Assembly: GCA_021772075.1 (NCBI GenBank)
Contig: JAETNQ010000022.1
Coordinates: 1-56,908 of the forward strand
DNA length: 56,908 nt
Direction: 5' to 3'
DNA from: Lachnospiraceae bacterium
GTDB taxonomy: Bacteria > Bacillota > Clostridia > Lachnospirales > Lachnospiraceae
Position numbers and translations under genes: made by a program. This document shows positions 1,905 to 48,925 of the stretch, piece by piece. The notes under the pieces were generated by a model that saw only the letters and a program-made list of their open reading frames with translations, ran no database searches and was not told where the DNA came from. The first letter of the stretch is position 1. Each line of letters starts with the position of its first letter.

Positions 1905-3002
1905 ATGGCAATTAAAATGATAGAAATTTTGAATGTAATGGTGTTCAGACGTCATTTGAGAAAAAATAATGCTGATTTTAAAAATATAAAAGAAAGTGAC
2001 ACATTTAATGATGGATTCAAAATGGAATTTGGTGATGGAATAAATGTTCTACTTGGTGAAAACGGAGTTGGAAAGACAACTATCCTAAAAATGATTTATG
2101 CAGCAACGCAATGGTCAATCAGGCAGGCGGATCCGGGAAAAACAAAGAGCTTGGTACAATTTTTCTCTAACAGCCTGAAAGATAGTGATGCTTTAAAAAA
2201 TGCAGAGAATAAAGAAGATTATTGTTATTACAGAGTATCAGACGGTACGCACAGCTTTGAAGACAGTCTTTCTCATAAAGTTATACTTAATTACGATAAA
2301 TGGCTTGGGTTGAATATACAGTCCGTATTTATTCCTACGACAGAAATGCTATCCCATGCAAAGGGATTTCTGGCGATGAATCAGAAATATAATATGCCTT
2401 TTGATGGGACACAGGTAGATATTATTGTAAATGCTTCTTTGCCGGAAACACGGGAGGTCCCATCTGTTATGAGCGGCATTCTTGATAAAATCAGTGATGT
2501 AATTGATGGAACGGTTATTTTGGAGAATGATTCTTTTTATATGTTAAAAAAGGATGGCAGAAAAGTGGATTTTTCATTAGAGGCGGAGGGGTTGCGCAAA
2601 TTAGGTTTGCTTTGGAAACTGATACGAAATGGTCTCCTGGAGAAAGGGACAGTTCTTTTATGGGATGAGCCGGAAGCAAATCTGAATCCTGAATTGTATC
2701 CTCTTGTTGCAGAGATTTTGCTGGAATTACAGAGAAACGGAACCCAGATTTTTGTAGCGACACACAGTTACAATTTTGCAAAATATTTAGAAATACGACG
2801 CGCAAATAAGGAACAGGTGATGTTTCATAATTTGTACAAGAGCCGGAACTTGTTTTCAGATGAAATGCAAAAGATATTTCCAGGGATGGATGATAATAGC
2901 GAGACAATATATAGCCAGTCAGCATACAAGATGGATGAAATCAGGTTTAATCATATTATGATTGCAGATAATAAACTGCTTGATGAAATATATGAACTGT
3001 AA
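1905..3002 (+). CDS. ABC/OLD-type AAA ATPase (AAA_15/AAA_21-like)
   Basis: This 365-residue soluble ATPase is of the RecF/OLD/ABC type. It has a Walker A GENGVGKTT near residue 51, an ABC-signature-like SLEAEGLRKLG near residue 226, a Walker B VLLWDEPEANLNP near residue 248, and a switch histidine in THSYNF. The early FGDGINVLLGENG resembles standalone AAA_21 proteins. It has no membrane segments. Ten bases separate it from the next gene, which encodes a small PD-(D/E)XK-like protein. ATPase-plus-nuclease pairs of this kind are common in anti-phage systems such as Septu, but I cannot match this pair to a named one. The DNA is visibly more AT-rich than the flanks, consistent with transfer. The start is supported by TGGAGA 8 bases upstream. 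Confidence 0.85.
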   Translation: MAIKMIEILNVMVFRRHLRKNNADFKNIKESDTFNDGFKMEFGDGINVLLGENGVGKTTILKMIYAATQWSIRQADPGKTKSLVQFFSNSLKDSDALKNAENKEDYCYYRVSDGTHSFEDSLSHKVILNYDKWLGLNIQSVFIPTTEMLSHAKGFLAMNQKYNMPFDGTQVDIIVNASLPETREVPSVMSGILDKISDVIDGTVILENDSFYMLKKDGRKVDFSLEAEGLRKLGLLWKLIRNGLLEKGTVLLWDEPEANLNPELYPLVAEILLELQRNGTQIFVATHSYNFAKYLEIRRANKEQVMFHNLYKSRNLFSDEMQKIFPGMDDNSETIYSQSAYKMDEIRFNHIMIADNKLLDEIYEL

Positions 3003-3012
3003 GAGGATACCT

Positions 3013-3522
3013 ATGAAAGATATATTTATAGAGGAAAACGGTGCATACAGTATTGATTGCAGAGCGGCTGTATGGGCAACGGATAAGATGCATGAGGATT
3101 ATCATAACGCGGGGATACATATGAGTGATGTGGATTTTTTGATTGAAAATTCTACTCACATCCTTATGGTAGAGTATAAAAATGCATGTCTTGCAAATGC
3201 AGAGAATCCTGAAGCATTCCATCCAATGGCGGATAAGAAAATATTAGTTGCATCACGAAAATTTTATGATTCCCTGCATTATTTGAGATTATTAGATAAA
3301 AATAAACCAATTCAATACATCTATATTCTCGAATATCCCAATGGAGATACAACTGCCAGAAAGAGACTGCGAAACAGATTGAAAATGGAATTGCCTTTTG
3401 TTCTTCAGGATAATATAGGGGATGGTAAGAAGTTGATAGAGCATGTGGATGTTCTTTCCATAGCTGAATGGAATGCTGATAACAGTTACGGAAAGTATCC
3501 AATAAAGCAAGTATCAGAATAG
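3013..3522 (+). CDS. Small PD-(D/E)XK-like protein paired with the ATPase
   Basis: This 169-residue protein starts at ATG 3013, behind AAGAGGA. It contains SDVDFLIENSTHILMVEYKN near residues 38-57. This matches the D-(x)n-(D/E)-x-K arrangement of the PD-(D/E)XK nuclease core, with the aspartate in VDF and then EYK on the next strand. A helical segment and a basic stretch (TARKRLRNRLK) follow. Nuclease activity is inferred only from this motif. The close spacing after the ATPase gene suggests co-translation, with the ATPase gating this effector. It could instead be an inactive PD-(D/E)XK-fold adaptor. I recognise no named family. Confidence 0.7.
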   Translation: MKDIFIEENGAYSIDCRAAVWATDKMHEDYHNAGIHMSDVDFLIENSTHILMVEYKNACLANAENPEAFHPMADKKILVASRKFYDSLHYLRLLDKNKPIQYIYILEYPNGDTTARKRLRNRLKMELPFVLQDNIGDGKKLIEHVDVLSIAEWNADNSYGKYPIKQVSE

Positions 3523-3611
3523 AATAGTTTATTTAAGGAAAGCGGCGAGGTGCATTTAAGTGTGATGCTGTATGGCTAAGGCGTTAAATGTAAGAACAAA
3601 CAGGAACAATT

Positions 3612-5366
3612 ATGTTGCGTATGGGGCTGGTTATGATGAGAGTAATAGGCATTGGAAGACAGGATTTTGAAAAAATCAGAATAAGTAATAATTTTTATAT
3701 CGATAAAACTAATTTCATACGTGAATGGTGGGAATCTGATGATGATGTAACATTGCTCACTCGTCCGAGAAGATTTGGAAAGACCCTTAATATGAGTATG
3801 TTGGAGAAATTCTTTTCCGTTAATTATGCAAACAGAGGCGATTTATTTGAGGGACTTAACATATGGGAAGAGAAATCTGCGGACGGAGATTATGATTACA
3901 GAAAATTACAGGGAACATATCCGGTTATTTTTTTAAGTTTTGCGGATATTAAGGAAGCTACATTTGAAGAGGCGCGTAAAAAAATATGTAAGATTATCCA
4001 GATGGTATATAATAAATTTGATTTTCTGCTTCAGAGTGATGTACTGAACGGTAATGAGAAAGAAGATTTTCAGAGAATATCGGCGGATATGGAAGATTAT
4101 ATGGCATCTTTATCACTAAAAATGCTTACTGGCTACCTGTGCCGCTATTATGGAAAAAAGGTAATAATTCTTTTGGACGAATATGACACGCCCATGCAGG
4201 AGGCGTATGTGTATGGATACTGGGATAAAATGGTGGTTTTTATCAGAAGTATGTTTAATTCTACCTTTAAAACCAATCCCTGTTTGGAGCGCGCTTTTAT
4301 GACGGGGATTACAAGAATAAGTAAAGAATCTATTTTCTCCGATTTGAATAATCTTGAAGTGGTAACGGCTATTTCTGATAAGTATACGGATTGTTTCGGT
4401 TTTACAGAAAGTGAAGTGTTTGAGGCACTGGAAGAATATGGGCTGACAGAACAGAAGAAGCAGGTAAAAGGTTGGTACGATGGGTTTATTTTTGGAAAGA
4501 AAAAAGATATTTATAATCCCTGGTCTATTATCAATTTCCTTGATAAAAGGAAAGTAGGTGCTTATTGGGCAAACAGCAGTTCCAATAGTCTTGTAGGAAA
4601 ACTGCTGCAGGAAGGAAGTGTAAATGTCAAGGAAGACTTTGAAACTTTATTACAAGGAGGGACTATTTGTGCGGAGATAGACGAACAGATTGTATACAGT
4701 ATGCTGGACAATGATGAACAGGCCCTTTGGAGCCTTCTGCTGGCCAGCGGTTATCTGAAAGTAGTAAAATATGAGACATATACTTCGGAATTTGGAGAGT
4801 GGAGGCAGGATTACAGGCTGGGATTAACCAACTTTGAGGTGAAGACTATGTTTCGGAATATGATACGGAAATGGTTCGGCGGCGCGGCGTCCGGTTACAA
4901 TGATTTTGTGAAAGCCTTGCTGGTTCATGATATAAGGGCGATGAATACTTATATGAATAAAGTAGCGCTGAATATTTTCAGCTATTTTGACACGGGGAGG
5001 AATCCGTCCGGAGAAGAGCCGGAACGTTTTTATCATGGTTTTGTACTTGGCCTGATGGTAGAACTTGCCGACAGATATTTGATTACATCCAACAGGGAAA
5101 GCGGATTCGGAAGATATGATGTCATGTTGGAGCCGAGAAAGACAGAAAGCGGAGCGGTCATGAACGATGCTGTTATTATGGAGTTTAAGGTGCAGGAGGC
5201 AGCGGAAAAGGAACTTTCCGATACGGTAAAAGAGGCACTGCGGCAGATAGAAGAGAAAGACTATCAGGCAAATCTTGTGGCAAAGGGGATTCCGGAGGGA
5301 CGTATTCGTAAATATGGGTTTGCGTTCTGCGGGAAGAAGGTGCTGATTGGAAGCGTGGAAGATTAG
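3612..5366 (+). CDS. AAA-ATPase-like / PDDEXK_9 (DUF1703) protein
   Basis: This 584-residue protein has the architecture common in Lachnospiraceae and Bacteroidetes: an N-terminal AAA-ATPase-like domain (PF09820 type) and a C-terminal PD-(D/E)XK nuclease-like domain (PF08011/DUF1703 type). The N-terminus reads IGRQDFEKIRISNNFYIDKT, then a P-loop-like RPRRFGKTLNMSML near residues 52-66, and a Walker-B-like VIILLDEYDTPMQ near residue 195. At the C-terminus GRYDVMLEP and VIMEFKVQ supply the D...ExK core. The biological role of the family is unsettled; genomes often hold many copies and some are thought to be mobile or defence-related. ATG 3612 follows AGGAA by 5 bases. ATG 3636 (MRVIGIG) matches the usual family start and is an alternative. 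Confidence 0.85.
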   Translation: MLRMGLVMMRVIGIGRQDFEKIRISNNFYIDKTNFIREWWESDDDVTLLTRPRRFGKTLNMSMLEKFFSVNYANRGDLFEGLNIWEEKSADGDYDYRKLQGTYPVIFLSFADIKEATFEEARKKICKIIQMVYNKFDFLLQSDVLNGNEKEDFQRISADMEDYMASLSLKMLTGYLCRYYGKKVIILLDEYDTPMQEAYVYGYWDKMVVFIRSMFNSTFKTNPCLERAFMTGITRISKESIFSDLNNLEVVTAISDKYTDCFGFTESEVFEALEEYGLTEQKKQVKGWYDGFIFGKKKDIYNPWSIINFLDKRKVGAYWANSSSNSLVGKLLQEGSVNVKEDFETLLQGGTICAEIDEQIVYSMLDNDEQALWSLLLASGYLKVVKYETYTSEFGEWRQDYRLGLTNFEVKTMFRNMIRKWFGGAASGYNDFVKALLVHDIRAMNTYMNKVALNIFSYFDTGRNPSGEEPERFYHGFVLGLMVELADRYLITSNRESGFGRYDVMLEPRKTESGAVMNDAVIMEFKVQEAAEKELSDTVKEALRQIEEKDYQANLVAKGIPEGRIRKYGFAFCGKKVLIGSVED

Positions 5367-5651
5367 GAAAGTGAACCAGTGGATATTCCGATGCAGCGGA
5401 GCCGTCTGTCCGGACAAGCGTGAGCCACTGGTAAGTTTGTTTACAATTACATACAGTCAGATTCTTTCAGACCATATATTTCCCGCATGGAGATATCCTT
5501 TGATGGATCACGGGGATGATGTCTATCATGCAGGCATCGTGTACGATACGGTCAAAGACGGTTGCATTTCACCGGAGGGTGATGATATAATGGGGCAGAT
5601 GATGCTGGCTCTGCGTTTTGGAAATGCACAGAAAATTTGAACTGAATTTAA
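5367..5651 (+). other. Unassigned stretch with an open frame, possible gene remnant
   Basis: No functional gene can be supported here. One + frame stays open to a stop at 5640 and reads through YPLMDHGDDVYHAGIVYD and GDDIMGQMMLALRFGN, which looks protein-like. It has no convincing start or ribosome site and I do not recognise the family. Together with the truncated gene that follows, it may be debris from a deletion that joined two unrelated genes. Confidence 0.3.
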
Positions 5652-6269
5652 ATGATTTTTTACCATGAGTCAGTGGTGATTCCGCCGTACCGGAACCAAG
5701 GTTACAACTTTACGATTACGTCATCCACTGCTTATGACCAGAAATGGATGCGCGGAAGAAATATTTTTGATAATATTGATTATTTGGTAGATACTATTTT
5801 TGCAAATTACTTGTCACGCCCCGGCGTCCGCCAGCCGATTTTTACTTCTTACTGCGACGGAAACCGTGTGACCTGCAGCGGATTGAGCCAATGGGGTTCC
5901 AAATATCTTGGGGAAGAAGGGTACTCGGCGATAGAAATCATCCGCTACTATTTTGGAAACGACATGTATATTAATTCTGCGGAAAGCATTGCCGGAGTTC
6001 CGTCTTCCTGGCCGGGCTACAACCTGACGATAGGGTCCAGCGGGGATAAGGTGCGCCAGATGCAGCAGCAGTTGAACCGAATCGCCCAGAATTACCCGGC
6101 GATCCCGGTGATTGCGGCTGATGGAATCTATGGAAGCCGTACGGCAGATGCAGTGAGGACTTTCCAGAGAATATTCAACATGCCCCAGTCCGGCGTAGTG
6201 GATTATCCCACTTGGTACCAGATCTCCAACATATATGTAGGAGTCAGCCGGATAGCGGAACCAGCATGA
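5652..6269 (+). pseudogene. 5'-truncated peptidoglycan-binding protein (SpoIID-like plus PG_binding_1)
   Basis: The reading frame matches the C-terminal half of a clostridial secreted/spore-coat type family. First comes a conserved stretch resembling the end of its SpoIID-like part (GYNFTITSSTAYDQ, GRNIFDNIDYLVD, SYCDGNRVTCSGLSQWGSK). A typical PG_binding_1 repeat follows, from about residue 125 (LTIGSSGDKVRQMQQQLN...DGIYGSRTADAVRTFQ). Family members normally carry several hundred residues before this point. Here the similarity begins about 15 codons after an ATG that has no ribosome site, and unrelated sequence precedes it. I therefore call it a remnant of a 5' deletion, although a shortened protein could still be made. 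Confidence 0.6.
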
Positions 6270-8930: not shown

Positions 8931-9309
8931 TGTCAGGGAAATCCATTTTTGCGGGCAGCGGGCAGGGCAGGGCGGGAAAAACAGGGCGGCGGCAGGAAGG
9001 CCGGGGGAGCAGATGGGGGATGGCTTCGCCGTTGCCTCACGCAGGGAAATAAGATTTTCTTAATATTCCGTTTAGAAAACAGCAATTTGATGACAAGGAT
9101 GTCATCAAAAGCCCGCCATGAGCCCGGATGGCGAATTGCGGGCGGTTGCGTCCGGCTGGCACAACGATGCCGGAATATTTAGAAAATCCATTTTCCGGAG
9201 CCGGCACGGCGAAGCCATCCCCCATCTGCTCCCCCGGCCTTCCTGCCGCCGCCCTTTTTCTTTCCCGCTGCCCTGCCCGCCGCCCGCAAAAATGGATTTC
9301 CCTGGCAAG
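8931..9309 (+). repeat. Large palindromic non-coding element, copy 1
   Basis: This is an imperfect inverted repeat of about 380 bases. The left arm begins TGTCAGGGAAATCCATTTTT and the right arm ends with its complement near 9307. The arms are G-rich on the left and C-rich on the right for about 100 bases. The centre holds an 8-bp stem TTGATGAC/GTCATCAA (9087-9108). One half also carries a conserved block with GGTTGCGTCCGGCTGGCAC. A homologous copy lies inverted at 34756-35104. Apparent reading frames inside are by-products of the GC-rich arms. It could be a MITE-like element or a large structured RNA. Confidence 0.85.
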
Positions 9310-26478: not shown

Positions 26479-27882
26479 TTGTATTTCGGGAATAAAGAGA
26501 ATAGGAAAAAAATAAAGCAAAAAATATTAAACGGCTGTATAGGAACCCTGATAGGGACGGCGGTTCTCTGCACGTTGTTTTCGACGTTTTCTTCTAAAGA
26601 GGATGGGGAAGAGAGCGGTTTCTGGGGGAAAGCGGCCGTTTGGCTGCAGAGGCAGATGAATCGGACATATCTGCCTGTTTTTGCTTTTGTGGAAGAGGAG
26701 ACAGGCATACACGGGGATCCCTGGGAGCTGCTGGAAGGGCTGCTGCTGGAGGGCGCGCCTCTGTACAGATACAGCGAGGAACAGGAAGGATTCCGGGTCA
26801 GCATAGAAGACGAGGATACTTATGATCTGCTGATCCGCGAGGAAGGAACGGATGAGGACCGGAAAGGAGTGGAAGACGGCTCGCTGGAATACGATGATGA
26901 TGCGCTTCATATCGACGGGGATCTGGAAAGGGCCATGATGGAGGAAAATAATTCCTACAACGAAAACATACAGGAAGAGGAAACGCCTGAGGAGGAACCG
27001 GAGGAGGTGAAGGAGTTCCGGAAGGCTTTAAATAAAAGTTATACATATGATTGGAATGGGTTGAAGGAGTACGAGGACATCGTCTCCGCTTTTTATGCCA
27101 TTGACAGTACTACTTCCATCACGGATGAACAGTTGAATCTGGAAAACCTGCTGGGAAAGGATATGTCTTTGAAGGGGAGCGCGGAAGAGCCGCAAATACT
27201 CATCTATCATACCCATTCCCAGGAAGGATTTGTGGATTCGGTGGCCGGGGACGCGTCTACCACGATTGTAGGGGCCGGCGACAGGCTGGCACAGATCCTG
27301 GCACAAGAATACGGATTCAATGTGCTGCATCATAAAGGGGAGTACGATGTGGAGGCAAGGGATTATGCCTATTCCAATTCGCTCCCGGCGATCGAACAGA
27401 TACTTGCAGAAAATCCTTCCATTGAGGTAGTGATCGATCTGCACCGGGATGCGGTGGCGGAGGGGAGGAAGCTGGCGGTGAATCTGCAGGGAAGGCCTAC
27501 GGCGCAGTTTATGTTCTTTAACGGACTGAGCAGAACAAGGAAAAACGGGGATATTTCTTATCTGGAGAACCCCTATGCGGACGATAACCTGGCTTTTTCT
27601 TTCCAGGCCCAGATCGCCTGTAATGAATATTATCCCGGCCTTGCCAGGAGGATTTACCTAAAGGCATACCGCTATAACATGCATTTGCGGGAAAAATGCA
27701 TGCTGATCGAACTGGGCGCGCAGACCAATACGGTAGAGGAAATCATGAACGCCTGTGATCCGCTGGCGCATGTGCTGGCAAAGGTGCTTTACGGAGAAAC
27801 GGGTGCGCAGGCCAGGGAAGCTGCGGGGGTGGAGTTGGAAAGCGGGGAAACCGACATGAAAGGGGAAAATAATTCGCATTGA
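26479..27882 (+). CDS. spoIIP: Stage II sporulation protein P (peptidoglycan hydrolase)
   Basis: This 467-residue protein has an N-terminal membrane anchor (GTLIGTAVLCTLFSTF, ~residues 20-36), a long acidic linker (~80-180) and the SpoIIP catalytic domain with ILIYHTHSQEGF, VVIDLHRDAV and CMLIELGAQTNT. It cleaves septal peptidoglycan during engulfment, together with SpoIID and SpoIIM. The start is taken as TTG 26479, 8 bases after AAAGAGG, because the upstream GTG at 26470 overlaps the Shine-Dalgarno. Its terminator (27909-27953) coincides with a recombination site, so its 3' end depends on the orientation of the adjacent invertible segment. Confidence 0.95.
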   Translation: MYFGNKENRKKIKQKILNGCIGTLIGTAVLCTLFSTFSSKEDGEESGFWGKAAVWLQRQMNRTYLPVFAFVEEETGIHGDPWELLEGLLLEGAPLYRYSEEQEGFRVSIEDEDTYDLLIREEGTDEDRKGVEDGSLEYDDDALHIDGDLERAMMEENNSYNENIQEEETPEEEPEEVKEFRKALNKSYTYDWNGLKEYEDIVSAFYAIDSTTSITDEQLNLENLLGKDMSLKGSAEEPQILIYHTHSQEGFVDSVAGDASTTIVGAGDRLAQILAQEYGFNVLHHKGEYDVEARDYAYSNSLPAIEQILAENPSIEVVIDLHRDAVAEGRKLAVNLQGRPTAQFMFFNGLSRTRKNGDISYLENPYADDNLAFSFQAQIACNEYYPGLARRIYLKAYRYNMHLREKCMLIELGAQTNTVEEIMNACDPLAHVLAKVLYGETGAQAREAAGVELESGETDMKGENNSH

Positions 27883-27908
27883 TTTTGCTGGAAATATGGA
27901 ATAATAAT

Positions 27909-27953
27909 AAAAAGAAATGCAACATTCTGTATGGAAATGTTGCATTTCTTTTT
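27909..27953. terminator. spoIIP terminator that contains the left recombination site
   Basis: AAAAAGAAATGCAACATT (27909-27926) and AATGTTGCATTTCTTTTT (27936-27953) form a perfect 18-bp stem with a 9-base loop. A-runs and T-runs flank it, so it can terminate in both directions. Only the inner part (27917-27944) is shared with the inverted copy at 28709-28736. Half of this terminator therefore lies inside the invertible segment and would be lost on inversion. Confidence 0.85.
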
Positions 27954-27962
27954 ACATATTAT

Positions 27963-27989
27963 GTATCGGAGATTATGGCAAATACTTTA
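27963..27989 (-). promoter_or_regulatory. Sigma-28 (SigD/FliA)-like promoter inside the invertible segment
   Basis: The - strand reads TAAAGTAT, 11 bases, TCCGATAC. This matches the flagellar sigma-28 consensus TAAAGTTT-N11-GCCGATAA at 13 of 16 positions with exact spacing. In the present orientation it points left into the spoIIP terminator, 10 bases away, so it should be silent. Confidence 0.7.
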
Positions 27990-28039
27990 TAGCAAAAACA
28001 AAAAAATTTAAAAATTCAATTCAAAATCAAGAGTCCTTT

Positions 28040-28624
28040 TTAAATATTAATATTCAAAAATACTTCATCCCTGTCATCTTGTTCAATACACAAATACTTC
28101 TTGGTAATCTGATATGAGGAATGGTTATAAATGTTCATTAACATAGCTGGCGGCACACCTTCTTTCCATGCAAAGTAACCAAAGGTCTTGCGGAGGGAAT
28201 GGCAGCTGACAGGCTCTTCCAGATGAGCGGCAGAAGCCGCTTCTCTTATGATACGGTATGCCTGATAGCGGCTGAGGGGCATTTGGGGATTTTGGGAACT
28301 GTTGAAAATATAGTCATCGGGAAGCCTGGGGCAGCGGCTTTTACTGTTTAGCAATATGGACAGGCTGTTTTTTACCGAGGAATTCATGGCGATAATGCTT
28401 TGCTTGCCGGTTTTCTGTTCGGTAATACGGATATGCTTAAAAAAGCATCGGGAAGAAAAGTCATAGACATTTTTCCACTGCAGGGACAGCAGATCACTGA
28501 TGCGCAGGGCGGTATTCAAGCCTGTTACGATTAAAGAATAGTTTCTGAAGTTCTGTTTGGCAAGGTAATAGTTCTTGAAATTTTCCAGTGCAGTTTTGTC
28601 TTTGATTGGCTGTGTTGTACTCAT
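28040..28624 (-). CDS. FimB/RecV-type tyrosine recombinase (DNA invertase)
   Basis: This 194-residue protein is about the size of FimB/FimE and shorter than phage integrases. The catalytic set is complete: Arg41 (ALRISDLL), Lys71 or Lys74 (KTGK), His142 and Arg145 (HSLRKTFG), His168 (YNHSS) and the nucleophile Tyr177 (KKYL). ATG 28624 has AAAGGAG 6 bases upstream, and an upstream in-frame extension is not needed. The gene lies wholly inside the 28-bp inverted repeats, so it is the likely enzyme acting on them. In the current orientation it is transcribed away from csrA-fliC. After inversion it would be co-directional with spoIIP, whose terminator would be broken. Confidence 0.9.
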   Translation of the reverse strand: MSTTQPIKDKTALENFKNYYLAKQNFRNYSLIVTGLNTALRISDLLSLQWKNVYDFSSRCFFKHIRITEQKTGKQSIIAMNSSVKNSLSILLNSKSRCPRLPDDYIFNSSQNPQMPLSRYQAYRIIREAASAAHLEEPVSCHSLRKTFGYFAWKEGVPPAMLMNIYNHSSYQITKKYLCIEQDDRDEVFLNINI

Positions 28625-28708
28625 AACGTCTCCTTTTTGTTTTATAGTGCTGTATTGCGTAAAATATTTTGATGATATTTCATATTTTATGGAATATGCA
28701 ATGAATGT

Positions 28709-28736
28709 TGCAACATTTCCATACAGAATGTTGCAT
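28709..28736. repeat. Right recombination site (inverted copy of 27917-27944)
   Basis: This is a perfect reverse complement of the left site over 28 bases. Flanking bases differ from the left copy (CGGCAGC on the outside), so it is not a terminator. On its inner side it extends into a 14-bp palindrome AATGTTGCAACATT (28704-28717), possibly an extra recombinase arm site. Confidence 0.9.
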
Positions 28737-28830
28737 CGGCAGCAACGGTGGTGCCGGGGGCATGGCTGTTGCCGCAGGCATGGCGGCACATAACGGATGG
28801 CGTGTTATGGAGAAACAAGGAGGTTTTAAT

Positions 28831-29079
28831 ATGTTGCGGTTAACAGTAAGTACGGAAGAATATCTGATGATTGGTGATGATGTAAGAATTGTATTTTTAG
28901 GCGGCAGCCACAATCACCTGAAGATTATGATTGATGCACCAAAGGAAGTAGATGTGATCAGGAGCAGGGTCATTGAAAATAAAATCAAAGATCCGGAACT
29001 GAAAGCAAAGCTCCCTAAATATTATGCAGAACCGGATCGGCAGGAAAAATTCCGCAAATCCCAAAAGATCTGTAAGTAA
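28831..29079 (+). CDS. csrA: Carbon storage regulator CsrA
   Basis: This 82-residue RNA-binding protein has the family outline MLRLTVSTEEYLMIGDDVRI at the start, a beta core (GSHNHLKIMIDAPKEVDVIR) and the RSRVIENKI region. In Firmicutes CsrA binds GGA motifs in the flagellin leader and blocks its translation, and FliW relieves this; no fliW is in the window. The C-terminus is about 10 residues longer than usual and basic. AAGGAGG lies 7 bases before the ATG. There is no convincing promoter between the right recombination site and the gene, so expression may depend on the switch. fliC follows 203 bases later. Confidence 0.93.
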   Translation: MLRLTVSTEEYLMIGDDVRIVFLGGSHNHLKIMIDAPKEVDVIRSRVIENKIKDPELKAKLPKYYAEPDRQEKFRKSQKICK

Positions 29080-29282
29080 TAGAGTTAATAGCCGGAGTTT
29101 TCTAGAGACCTCGGATATTAGGTGCATTTTCCGGCAGGCATCTGCCATGGGAAAGGCGCAGATAGAACAACTGAATAAGGAAAGATGGCAGATAAACGGA
29201 TTTATCTGCAAGACAATCCGGCAGGAAAAAATCATAAGAAATGCTTTTCATCAATGCCGGTAAGCACAAGGAGGTAATTAGT
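29080..29282 (+). promoter_or_regulatory. fliC leader with CsrA-type hairpin
   Basis: This 203-base leader has a perfect 9-bp hairpin GCAGATAAA-CGGA-TTTATCTGC (29188-29209) with GGA in its loop. A second GGA lies in the Shine-Dalgarno AAGGAGG before fliC. In Bacillus subtilis hag, CsrA binds just such a pair, an upstream hairpin site and the Shine-Dalgarno site. A smaller hairpin GGCAG-GCAT-CTGCC is at 29133-29146. No separate sigma-28 promoter is seen here. Confidence 0.6.
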
Positions 29283-30644
29283 ATGGTAGTACAACACAAT
29301 CTTACAGCGATGAACGCAAACAGAATGTTAAACATCACGGTAAACACACAGGCAAAACAGACAGAAAGACTTTCTTCCGGTTATCGAATCAACCGTGCGG
29401 CAGATGATGCGGCAGGCCTTTCCATCTCTGAAAAAATGAGAAAACAGATCAGAGGTCTGTCCCAGGCTTCTACAAATGCGCAGGACGGCATCAGCATGGT
29501 ACAGACAGCGGAAGGTGCTTTGACAGAAGTACACGATATGCTGCAGAGAATGAATGAATTGGCTGTAAAATCCGCAAACGGAACCAATAGTACGGAAGAA
29601 AGATCTTATATCCAGCAGGAAATTGACCAGTTGATCACAGAGATTGATCGTGTGTCGGAAACGACAAAGTTTAATGACCGTTATTTGCTGAAAGGGGAGG
29701 GTACAAGGACAATCGAGGTAGATGTTCCGGCAGTAGACGCAGTGGATGTGAAAGCTACTTATGTTGCGGGAAAAGGCGAATCCAGCATTGGATTACAGAC
29801 CGGCAAGGATTTGAATGCCGTATTTCTGAAAGGAAGCACAACCGCGCTGACAGCCGCAGATATTCCCAAGTATTTTGAAATTAATGCTGACGGAGACATT
29901 GTGATAAAAGATGGCGTGGAATTATTCAGTGTAGCAGCAAATGGCACCAACGAATACGGCGCGCAGCTAGACGATAAGAAAGTGGCAGATGCGGATATAC
30001 AGGCTCTGCTCCAGGTAAACACAAGCAAAGTATCAACGGCGGATGATGGTACCGCTTTGGTTGACGAAGAAGATTTAGCTGATTTATTCAATACGGACGG
30101 TTCTTTGAAAGCTCCTATTTATGCAATGAAGGCAGATGGAACCTGGGCAGAAATCGGTGCGGAACAGGTGGGAAAATTTATCAATGTCACTCCTGGCAAA
30201 GTCGCAGTAGCAGCCGGTACAGAGGAGAAAGAGGTTGCAGGGATTTTTGAACTGAATCTCCATGTAGGCGCGGAGAGTGCGGCAGCAAATAAAATTTCTG
30301 TCAGCATTGAAGCGATGAATGCAGAAAACATCGGCGTCAAGGATTTGAAGGTTAATACTGAAGATGCGGCAACAGCAGCGATTGATCAGTTGAATTTCTC
30401 GATTCGCAAGGTATCCGAACAAAGAGCGGCTCTCGGCGCAATACAGAACCGCTTGGAGCATACAATCAACAACCTGGATAATGTAGTTGAGAATACAACA
30501 GCGGCAGAATCACGCATCCGTGATACCGATATGGCAAAAGCGATGGTTACGTATTCGAATAATCAGGTTCTTGCCCAGGCGGGACAGGCTATGCTTGCGC
30601 AGGCTAACCAGGTAAATCAGGGCGTATTGTCCCTGCTCCAGTAA
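29283..30644 (+). CDS. fliC: Flagellin
   Basis: This 453-residue filament subunit has conserved D0/D1 ends: [17 protein letters not shown], then [20 protein letters not shown] near residue 38, [15 protein letters not shown] near 90, and a C-terminal [18 protein letters not shown]. The D1 segment corresponds to the part of bacterial flagellins that TLR5 recognises. The central domain (~residues 145-360) is variable and hydrophilic. Export needs no signal peptide. ATG 29283 follows AAGGAGG by 8 bases. The gene appears controlled at two levels: a phase-variable promoter upstream of csrA, and CsrA binding in the leader. Confidence 0.97.
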
Positions 30645-30686
30645 GGTTCCTGCTTCGGTTACAGGTAACAGCGGATTTCATATCAG

Positions 30687-30737
30687 ACATCCCGATAAGG
30701 CTGGCTTATATTTGCCGGCCTTATTGGGATGTTTTTA
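30687..30737 (+). terminator. fliC terminator
   Basis: CATCCCGATAAGGCTGGC pairs with GCCGGCCTTATTGGGATG and is followed by TTTTT (30732-30736). It is long and strong, and it isolates flagellin transcription from lepA. Confidence 0.92.
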
Positions 30738-30874
30738 TGCCAAACGGGCGGATAGTCGTGGGAACCGGCGGTGAAAAGACAATGGACAATAACCGCAGAT
30801 ATATGATATACTTACTCCGGTTAGAAGGAACCGCCTATAGCAGCCGGAAGGGCGGGATATTACGGAGGAAACAA

Positions 30875-34755: not shown

Positions 34756-35104
34756 GGTTTGCGGGCTGCGGGCATGGCAGGGCGGGAAAGAAGAAGGGCG
34801 GCAGCAGGAAGGCGCAGGGGAGCAGAGGGGGAATGCTTCGCCGTGCCGACTCCGAGAAATAGATTTTCTAAATATTCCGGTGTCGTTGTGCCAGCCGGAC
34901 GCAACCGTCCGCGATTCGCCATCCAGGCTCATTGCGGACTTTTGGTGACATCCGTGTCACCAAATTGCTGCCTGTCGGACGGAATATTAAGAAAATCTTA
35001 TTTCCCTGCGTAAGGCAACGGCGAAGCATTCCCCCTCTGCTCCCCTGCGCCTTCCTGCTGCCGCCTTTCTTCTTTCCCGCCCTGCCATGCCCGCAGCCCG
35101 CAAA
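34756..35104 (-). repeat. Large palindromic non-coding element, copy 2
   Basis: This copy is homologous to 8931-9309 but inverted. The arms (TTTGCGGGCTGCGGGCATGG and its complement) flank about 350 bases. The centre is a perfect 10-bp hairpin TTTGGTGACA-TCCG-TGTCACCAAA (34941-34964). Copy 1 has a different stem at the same place, so the base pairing is conserved more than the bases. The block GTGCCAGCCGGACGCAACC is shared with copy 1 (as its complement). It sits between a metallohydrolase gene and the cysE promoter. Confidence 0.85.
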
Positions 35105-35177: not shown

Positions 35178-35204
35178 GTGATTAACAGGAAATAAAACGG
35201 AAAA

Positions 35205-35476
35205 AGCTGTGAGCAGAAAGAGTACGCGGCCGGAAAATAACAGAGAGGGACTGCCGCCGGTTGAGAGCGGTTCTGATTGGAAGGCGGCGGAAGTGCGTCT
35301 GTGAGCTGATGCGGGGAAGGTTGGAATATTTTTTCTGGTATCCGCATACGGGGAGGGCACGTTACGCCTTATGAGGGAAGGATGGGAATCACATCCTTAA
35401 TAAGAGTGGAACCGCGGAGCTGCTTCGTCTCTTGATTTTAACGAATGTTGAAATGGAGGCGGAGTTTTTTGTATGC
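35205..35476 (+). promoter_or_regulatory. T-box leader, cysteine-specific (TGC specifier)
   Basis: Stem I is closed by AGCT/AGCT and CAGA/TCTG with GTGAG/TGAG bulges and an AGTA S-turn motif. The opposite strand of its specifier loop contains TGC at 35294-35296, a cysteine codon. The T-box sequence AGAGTGGAACCGCGG (35403-35417) pairs uncharged tRNA ends. The competing terminator is CTTCGTCTCT (35423-35432) with GGAGGCGGAG (35455-35464), then TTTTTT. Uncharged tRNA-Cys should allow transcription of cysE and cysS. Confidence 0.92.
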
Positions 35477-48852: not shown

Positions 48853-48925
48853 GCTGCTATAGCACAGTCGGTAGTGCGCAACATTGGTAGTGTTGAGGTC
48901 ACCAGTTCGATTCTGGTTAGCAGCT
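48853..48925 (+). tRNA. tRNA-Thr (anticodon GGU)
   Basis: A complete cloverleaf can be drawn. The acceptor stem is GCTGCTA/TAGCAGC, the D stem GCAC/GTGC, and the anticodon stem CAACA/TGTTG with loop TTGGTAG (anticodon GGT, codons ACC and ACU). The variable region is followed by T stem ACCAG/CTGGT with loop TTCGATT. The CCA end is not encoded. The last 40 bases are repeated at 50706-50747. Confidence 0.93.

Follow-up and report, generated by a model that had tools for sequence, protein, structure and literature searches.

The window analysed here (56,908 nucleotides, positions 1 to 56,908 of contig JAETNQ010000022.1 of a Lachnospiraceae draft genome) very probably carries an invertible promoter cassette that encodes its own recombinase and serves an alternative flagellin. 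In the proposed mechanism, a tyrosine recombinase would recombine two inverted sites and thereby flip the 0.8-kb segment between them, which contains its own gene and a sigma-28 promoter. In the OFF orientation the promoter would face the distal site, whose flank completes a terminator, and csrA-fliC would go unread; in the ON orientation the inverted promoter would pass the csrA-proximal site, which has no T tract, and read csrA and then fliC (Table 1).

Table 1 Features of the flagellin switch cassette, in window coordinates
Feature	Position	Strand	Basis or remark
Whole cassette, approximate insertion between spoIIP and lepA	27840..30773	.	Alignment with nearest genus-mate
Intrinsic-terminator-like palindrome around distal site	27908..27954	-	Terminator scan, fold, family comparison
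Distal (left) recombination site, 28 bp	27917..27944	+	Repeat search and score
Sigma-28 promoter TAAAGTAT-N11-TCCGATAC	27963..27989	-	Points left, away from csrA-fliC
Tyrosine recombinase, 194 aa, inside segment (type A layout)	28040..28624 (stop included)	-	PF00589, motifs
csrA-proximal (right) recombination site, 28 bp, inverted copy	28709..28736	-	Repeat search and score; no T tract beyond, on csrA side
csrA-like gene, switch type (V6, R44), 82 aa	28831..29079	+	PF02599, residue comparison
fliC, alternative flagellin, 453 aa	29283..30644	+	PF00669 and PF00700

Components of the window cassette

A sequence-only reading of the window had described a perfect inverted repeat with an asymmetric 9-nt centre, a 194-residue tyrosine recombinase with its catalytic residues between the copies, a sigma-28 promoter beside the left copy pointing left, and csrA and fliC just outside the right copy; all of these were recovered here, the repeat to the nucleotide. 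Each 28-bp site (ATGCAACATT-CTGTATGGA-AATGTTGCA) consists of two arms around the centre. The repeat score is 28; 740 dinucleotide shuffles, made from the flanking sequences of 37 family members linked to csrA/fliC, reached 16 at best. No further copy of the site pattern was found in the 3.48-Mb draft genome with up to three mismatches allowed, and the segment of about 0.8 kb that holds the recombinase gene and the promoter is present there in a single orientation (OFF).

The recombinase matches the Phage_integrase catalytic domain PF00589 (E=1.2e-23), which sets it apart from the serine recombinases of Hin and other DNA invertase systems. Its residues R41, K71, H142, R145, H168 and Y177, which we take to be the catalytic set R-K-H-R-H-Y, all lie within the expected motifs, and the aligned stretches of a comparison with XerA (5hxy) include R41, H142, R145, H168 and Y177. 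Scores were below the NCBIfam cut-offs for the FimB/FimE subfamilies (PRK09871, 35.4 versus 222 bits; PRK09870, 33.7 versus 221). This enzyme is presumably the catalyst of segment inversion. The window has what we call the type A layout, in which the promoter lies past the recombinase 3' end and runs in the same direction as the gene; in type B the promoter lies at the recombinase 5' end and runs in the opposite direction.

Both genes beyond the right repeat exceed the Pfam cut-offs, with the window CsrA scoring 63 bits against PF02599 (cut-off 27) and the flagellin carrying both its N- and C-terminal domains (PF00669 and PF00700). The CsrA equivalog cut-offs were missed (36.3 versus 70.1 for TIGR00202, and 43.4 versus 73 bits for NF002469).

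The promoter is the sole exact match to its pattern in the window; with up to three mismatches, three matches were obtained compared with 1.8 in shuffled sequence. A flagellin gene on contig C95, situated approximately 4 kb from the genome's ordinary csrA, is preceded by TAAAGTAT-N11-TCCGATAT, and the two promoters differ solely in the last base of the -10 element and in the spacer. The genome also encodes a FliA/SigD sigma factor scoring above its model cut-off, so that the promoter can be assigned to sigma-28 by its match to the host's own flagellin promoter together with the presence of the sigma factor. In silico inversion places it at 28664-28690, reading into csrA with 134 nt between the assumed start and the ATG, which reproduces the coordinates predicted in the sequence-only reading.

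That reading had also noted that csrA-fliC has no obvious promoter of its own and had called the orientation OFF. Consistent with both points, scans of the plus strand returned no sigma-70-like site at 28737-28830 or 29080-29282, and no second sigma-28 site (at least 12/16) was found within 700 nt of the recombinase. Since the one promoter faces away, into the terminator-like distal site, csrA-fliC would be without an evident promoter and OFF as shown, in agreement with the relatives described below. A search with Rfam at gathering score found no RNA leader at the switch. Sigma-70-like sites are not in excess in the window (4 versus a mean of 4.8 in shuffles), and one that lies within the segment could, as the segment is now oriented, drive the recombinase. 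It is quite improbable that the orientation shown is not silent, with an unrecognised promoter feeding csrA-fliC and the flip altering its level or timing. Promoter scans of this kind are weak, as the shuffle mean indicates, and a type B recombinase gene reads toward csrA when OFF, which makes read-through possible; however, the scans were empty ahead of both csrA and fliC, and the recombinase gene of the window reads away from csrA.

When read from the promoter as now oriented, the distal site forms a hairpin of 21 pairs (-24 kcal/mol) with a T-rich 3' side, whereas the csrA-proximal site read after inversion forms a stem of 11 pairs with no T tract. The terminator, T-excess and -10 comparisons were made on 53 of the 55 oriented recombinase cassettes, the other two having failed the flank-length limit. 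The distal hairpin was the more stable one in 51 of the 53, the richest 8-nt T window was higher on the distal side in 48, equal in five and never lower, and the total T count in 24 nt was higher in 51, equal in one and lower in one. Wilcoxon p values for these comparisons were between 1e-10 and 2e-9 and serve only as a guide because the loci are related by descent. The T excess at the distal flank is strand-specific and more than AT-richness, with averages per 24 nt of 12.8 T and 4.6 A distally compared with 5.6 T and 7.9 A on the csrA side. From this asymmetry in hairpin and T content it appears that the fixed flanks, rather than the segment, decide whether the promoter is capped. We infer that the csrA-distal site doubles as an intrinsic terminator capping the OFF promoter, a role of the left repeat that is new relative to the sequence-only reading.

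The distal hairpin also bears on whether the promoter, as shown, serves a gene on the distal side, so that the segment alternates between two neighbours. Two loci, L241 (recombinase segment 4961-5536) and L245 (4380-4949), have the segment between flagellin genes, with csrA found at neither; they could alternate two flagellins. In 17 of 53 OFF loci the promoter and the nearest ORF on the distal side run the same way, but the ORF is opposite in 28, with seven further contig ends and one locus without an ORF, and the distal gene in the window is spoIIP, which is convergent. Together with the terminator-like hairpin, this makes such a role very improbable for the window.

Family-wide distribution and inversion among relatives

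The species-genome scan identified 13 loci with a recombinase relative (53–73% identity of the best segment), with csrA and/or fliC beside the recombinase in 11. Of 397 genomes in a family-wide draw, 30, that of the window among them, gave a recombinase match at E≤1e-30, which is the nearest thing to a frequency; sampling was otherwise uneven, with one search centred on the L010 genome and another on peptide patterns. After 16 duplicate loci were dropped, and further duplicates in later rounds, a total of 110 distinct recombinases were examined. Family matches outside this sample comprise nine at E=1.5e-46 or weaker (G423, G487, G516, G528, G534, G547 and three in G549) and one at G421:C108, and of the weak genus-search matches only those in G012 and G015 were taken further. 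The strict catalytic-motif expression fits 86 of the 110 recombinases, and three (L015, L159 and L248) have an internal stop.

Neighbours called by tblastn with the window proteins place 70 of the 110 recombinases within 1.5 kb of csrA and/or a flagellin gene (csrA 67, fliC 65, both 62). Flanking inverted repeats score at least 12 in 62 of these 70 loci and at least 14 in 61, and 57 combine repeats with an outward sigma-28 site between repeat and recombinase, the spacer being 11 in 53 of the 57. For the first 37 csrA/fliC-linked loci, repeats scoring at least 14 were present in 31 compared with 0.4% of dinucleotide-shuffled flanks, and an outward sigma-28 site of at least 13/16 with a spacer of 11 in 25 compared with 0.27% of shuffles. 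Repeats without a sigma-28 site were found in five of the 70 (L015, L227, L228, L246, L247). The eight without repeats are L014, L138, L139, L151, L188, L213, L214 and L238, of which the first five each show, by eye, one site-like sequence on the csrA/fliC side and may for this reason be decayed switches.

The remaining 40 recombinases have no csrA/fliC neighbour. A sigma-28 site was present in only two of 27 recombinases of this kind (L148 and L164), both by a contig end. Three other loci, L044 (7637-8206), L153 (4668-5243) and L156 (recombinase 5044-5619, locus reversed), carry the same recombinase family with inverted repeats and lack a strong sigma-28 site; by eye, their neighbours resemble glycosyltransferase or polysaccharide genes. 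A single clade of flagellin-linked recombinases was not supported, the fewest label changes on the tree being 18 for type A, two for type B, 14 for recombinases without csrA/fliC and 11 for csrA/fliC-linked recombinases lacking repeats or promoter.

Orientation could be assigned at 55 recombinase loci with one target side, 53 of them OFF and two ON. Seven csrA-fliC cassettes in genomes G414 and G421 have no adjoining family recombinase, and six of these are OFF and one is ON, giving 59 OFF among 62 oriented cassettes. The recombinase-free cassettes, L277–L281 among them, each contain a 193–200-bp element that has sites of this kind together with a sigma-28 site scoring 14/16, and since they have no recombinase of their own all seven would need a trans-acting enzyme. 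One of them, L281 (OFF), has an extra, weaker 12/16 sigma-28 site facing csrA at a distance of 333 nt.

Each ON cassette could be compared with an OFF relative. Within genome G414, once one of the two is inverted, L278 (ON) and L277 (OFF) agree at 126 of 138 inner positions; uninverted, they match across just 11 nt. L239 (OFF) and L240 (ON) are 76% identical over approximately 300 nt on the csrA side and 73% identical over approximately 760 nt of segment, in mutually inverted orientation; their recombinases (L219, L222) belong to one well-supported clade of seven. Their outer half-sites stay with the flanks (AACTT on the csrA side in both, AACAT or AACAC distally), which indicates that the exchange falls mid-site. 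Lastly, the segments of L010 (ON, type B) and L008 (OFF) are 78% identical over 776 nt and their csrA flanks 80% over 181 nt, in inverted order. The csrA of L010 (region 2400-6000) is shortened and no flagellin was found behind it, which leaves two ON loci out of three with a flagellin; the genes that follow, at the place of the flagellin in relatives, are licD- and ispD-like by motif, presumably polysaccharide genes. On these three alignments, true inversion has occurred among the relatives. The claim of an invertible segment is thus borne out by the same architecture in many genomes, by both orientations in relatives and by outer half-sites that are fixed to the flanks.

The segment presumably still flips in the window strain. 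Counting against this, the draft genome contains a single orientation, and the excess of OFF cassettes could mean that many switches are locked. The window switch could accordingly be a relic, once invertible in the lineage and now fixed OFF with csrA-fliC silent, as broken recombinases and lost repeats in some relatives might suggest. We consider this unlikely, given that the window has perfect repeats and that its recombinase, catalytic motifs, csrA, fliC and promoter are all intact. In a cassette that does invert, the ON orientation may be uncommon, or disfavoured by selection, in the populations sampled.

The type A recombinase start lies a median of 56 nt from its repeat (45 loci), a gap that is often too short to fit a complete promoter. 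We searched the nearest 45 nt outside each site of type A loci for -10 elements and found an inward TATAAT-like element (at least 5/6) outside the distal site at 36 of 43 loci, 11 of them perfect, compared with seven of 43 and none perfect on the csrA side. The same AT-rich distal flank read outward contains such an element in 27 of 43, two perfect. A -35/-10 pair of at least 9/12 was found at 18 of 43 loci inward from the distal flank, compared with five outward and four inward from the csrA side. With the short gap between gene and repeat, these inward elements raise the idea that recombinase expression might peak in the ON orientation.

Five csrA/fliC-linked contigs end no more than 250 nt from the outer repeat edge; the closest two, those of L141 and L157, stop 16 and 10 nt past the distal repeat, and mixed-orientation reads might cause such ends. 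Contig ends were rejected as a sign of mixed orientations, the signal from only five loci being too weak.

A divergent CsrA and an inserted cassette

A total of 40 CsrA matches in 14 genomes fall into 14 high-scoring (E≤1.5e-23) and 26 low-scoring (6e-19 to 4e-13) matches. By coordinates, 19 of the 26 low-scoring matches adjoin a family recombinase, and the other seven belong to the recombinase-free cassettes. Residues R6 and R44 of CsrA matter for RNA binding. In switch-type CsrA, R44 is kept in 68 of 69 proteins and R6 is replaced by V, I, L or M in all 69, while R6 is present in all six canonical proteins recovered. The comparison was made by position count with no alignment, and the R6 contrast is one of 69 against six proteins because the regular expression recovered canonical CsrA at only six of 15 loci (L076–L090). 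Judged by these residues and scores, the switch-linked CsrA is a divergent paralogue, a point beyond the sequence-only reading. It probably adjusts the translation of a flagellin, either that of its own operon or another; it may be self-tuning, or may silence other flagellins as FljA does in Salmonella.

When the window is aligned with its closest genus-mate, the insertion begins in the final codons of spoIIP and extends as far as the lepA promoter. Ten of 15 genus-mates have lepA directly after spoIIP; among the other five, contigs end at this point in G006 and G014, and G004, G012 and G013 have neither lepA nor a switch gene within approximately 1.5 kb, so that the cassette is absent from spoIIP in all 15 as far as the contigs reach. 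Similar units recur, with three cassettes within 19.5 kb in G468 and five switch-type csrA-fliC cassettes, one ON, in G414. The unit is an insertion repeated across the family, which had not been recognised in the earlier reading.

An inserted cassette, together with recombinase relatives at 35–53% identity in phage and plasmid records, often annotated as integrases, might indicate that the repeats serve a small mobile element for its integration or excision, and do not serve inversion. This is exceedingly improbable: site-specific recombination at inverted sites inverts the intervening DNA and does not excise it, inversion is seen among relatives, and the insertion is wider than the repeats. 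Two of the recombinase relatives, MT837916.1 4838-5419 and MT837633.1 19-561 (51.0 and 52.7% identity), are located on unannotated contigs filed as gut phages. The csrA-side site pattern, which would fit either orientation, gave no matches in viral contigs.

A broader proposal, which we put forward tentatively, is that Lachnospiraceae re-invented the flagellin exchange of Salmonella with modular cassettes, several per genome and few or only one ON at a time. Each ON operon would then supply an alternative flagellin and a dedicated CsrA that, like FljA, silences translation of the main or other flagellins, and in type A the recombinase would be transcribed chiefly in ON, from a promoter lying outside the distal site, such that ON erases itself. 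A self-erasing ON state would explain the excess of OFF cassettes.

Relation to known switches

Promoter inversion by a site-specific recombinase is a known kind of switch. In logic the nearest system is hin-fljBA of Salmonella, whose fljB promoter is sigma-28 dependent; by host group it is the flg switch flipped by RecV in Clostridioides difficile, a member of the class Clostridia. The cassette is an analogue of the former, not a member. As far as the available parts of PMC9368917 and PMC11868660 describe hin-fljBA, the likeness extends to a recombinase gene and promoter inside the inverted segment, an adjoining operon of a second flagellin and a flagellin regulator, and transcription of that operon in one orientation with silence in the other (here predicted from sequence). 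Hin is a serine recombinase in the same part of PMC11868660, whereas that of the window is a tyrosine recombinase. Further differences are the regulator, which is CsrA-like and placed before the flagellin gene, the presence of several cassettes per genome, some recombinase-free, and the distal site that doubles as a putative terminator.

The C. difficile flg (Cdi4) switch, according to the portion of PMC5386303 available, shares with the window a tyrosine recombinase (RecV), inverted repeats, flagellar genes and a gut host. In the same portion, Cdi4 measures 154 bp with 21-bp repeats, close in size to the 193–200-bp recombinase-free elements L277–L281; it has a riboswitch on one side and the first ORF of the early flgB operon on the other, and governs the flagellum as a whole. 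The cwpV switch is a further target of RecV (PMC5386303). In the window, by comparison, a late sigma-28 promoter of one alternative flagellin would be flipped, and the recombinase gene lies inside the segment. In the fim switch of E. coli, FimB and FimE, tyrosine recombinases of approximately 200 aa, invert the promoter of a surface structure. The likeness is a small tyrosine recombinase inverting such a promoter; in fim two recombinases outside the element control fimbriae, whereas in the window one inside it would control flagellin.

In the CsrA-FliW-hag system of Bacillus, CsrA controls flagellin translation. This control appears among the titles cited within PMC3720852, a study of Eubacterium and Roseburia flagellin genes which, in the part available, discusses csrA and sigma-28 promoters and in which the words recombinase, phase and integrase give no match. 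The window differs from the Bacillus arrangement in having an extra, divergent CsrA inside the switched operon, with the ordinary csrA on C95. No Firmicutes flagellin switch was found in the available part of a 2025 phase-variation review (PMC11868660), where the word Firmicutes is absent. The earlier reading knew of no described flagellin switch with this gene order, and searches of the open-licence literature, outside which most subscription papers lie, found no description of the arrangement. Invertible promoters have been catalogued genome-wide, and loci of this type may be listed there.

Lachnospiraceae flagellins are major targets of gut immunity. If the proposed switch is correct, it represents a family-wide DNA switch for spare flagellins, by which one genome stands for several antigenic states and assemblies, nearly all OFF (59/62), hide the others. 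It would also solve the Salmonella problem a second time and independently, using sites that act both as crossover points and as terminators.

Elsewhere in the window, a second perfect inverted repeat of 38 bp (34758-34795 and 35067-35104) surrounds a TwoAYGGAY RNA (34847-35013, minus strand), and Rfam matches include another TwoAYGGAY RNA (9037-9203), a T-box leader (35200-35435) and a tRNA (48853-48925), all three on the plus strand.
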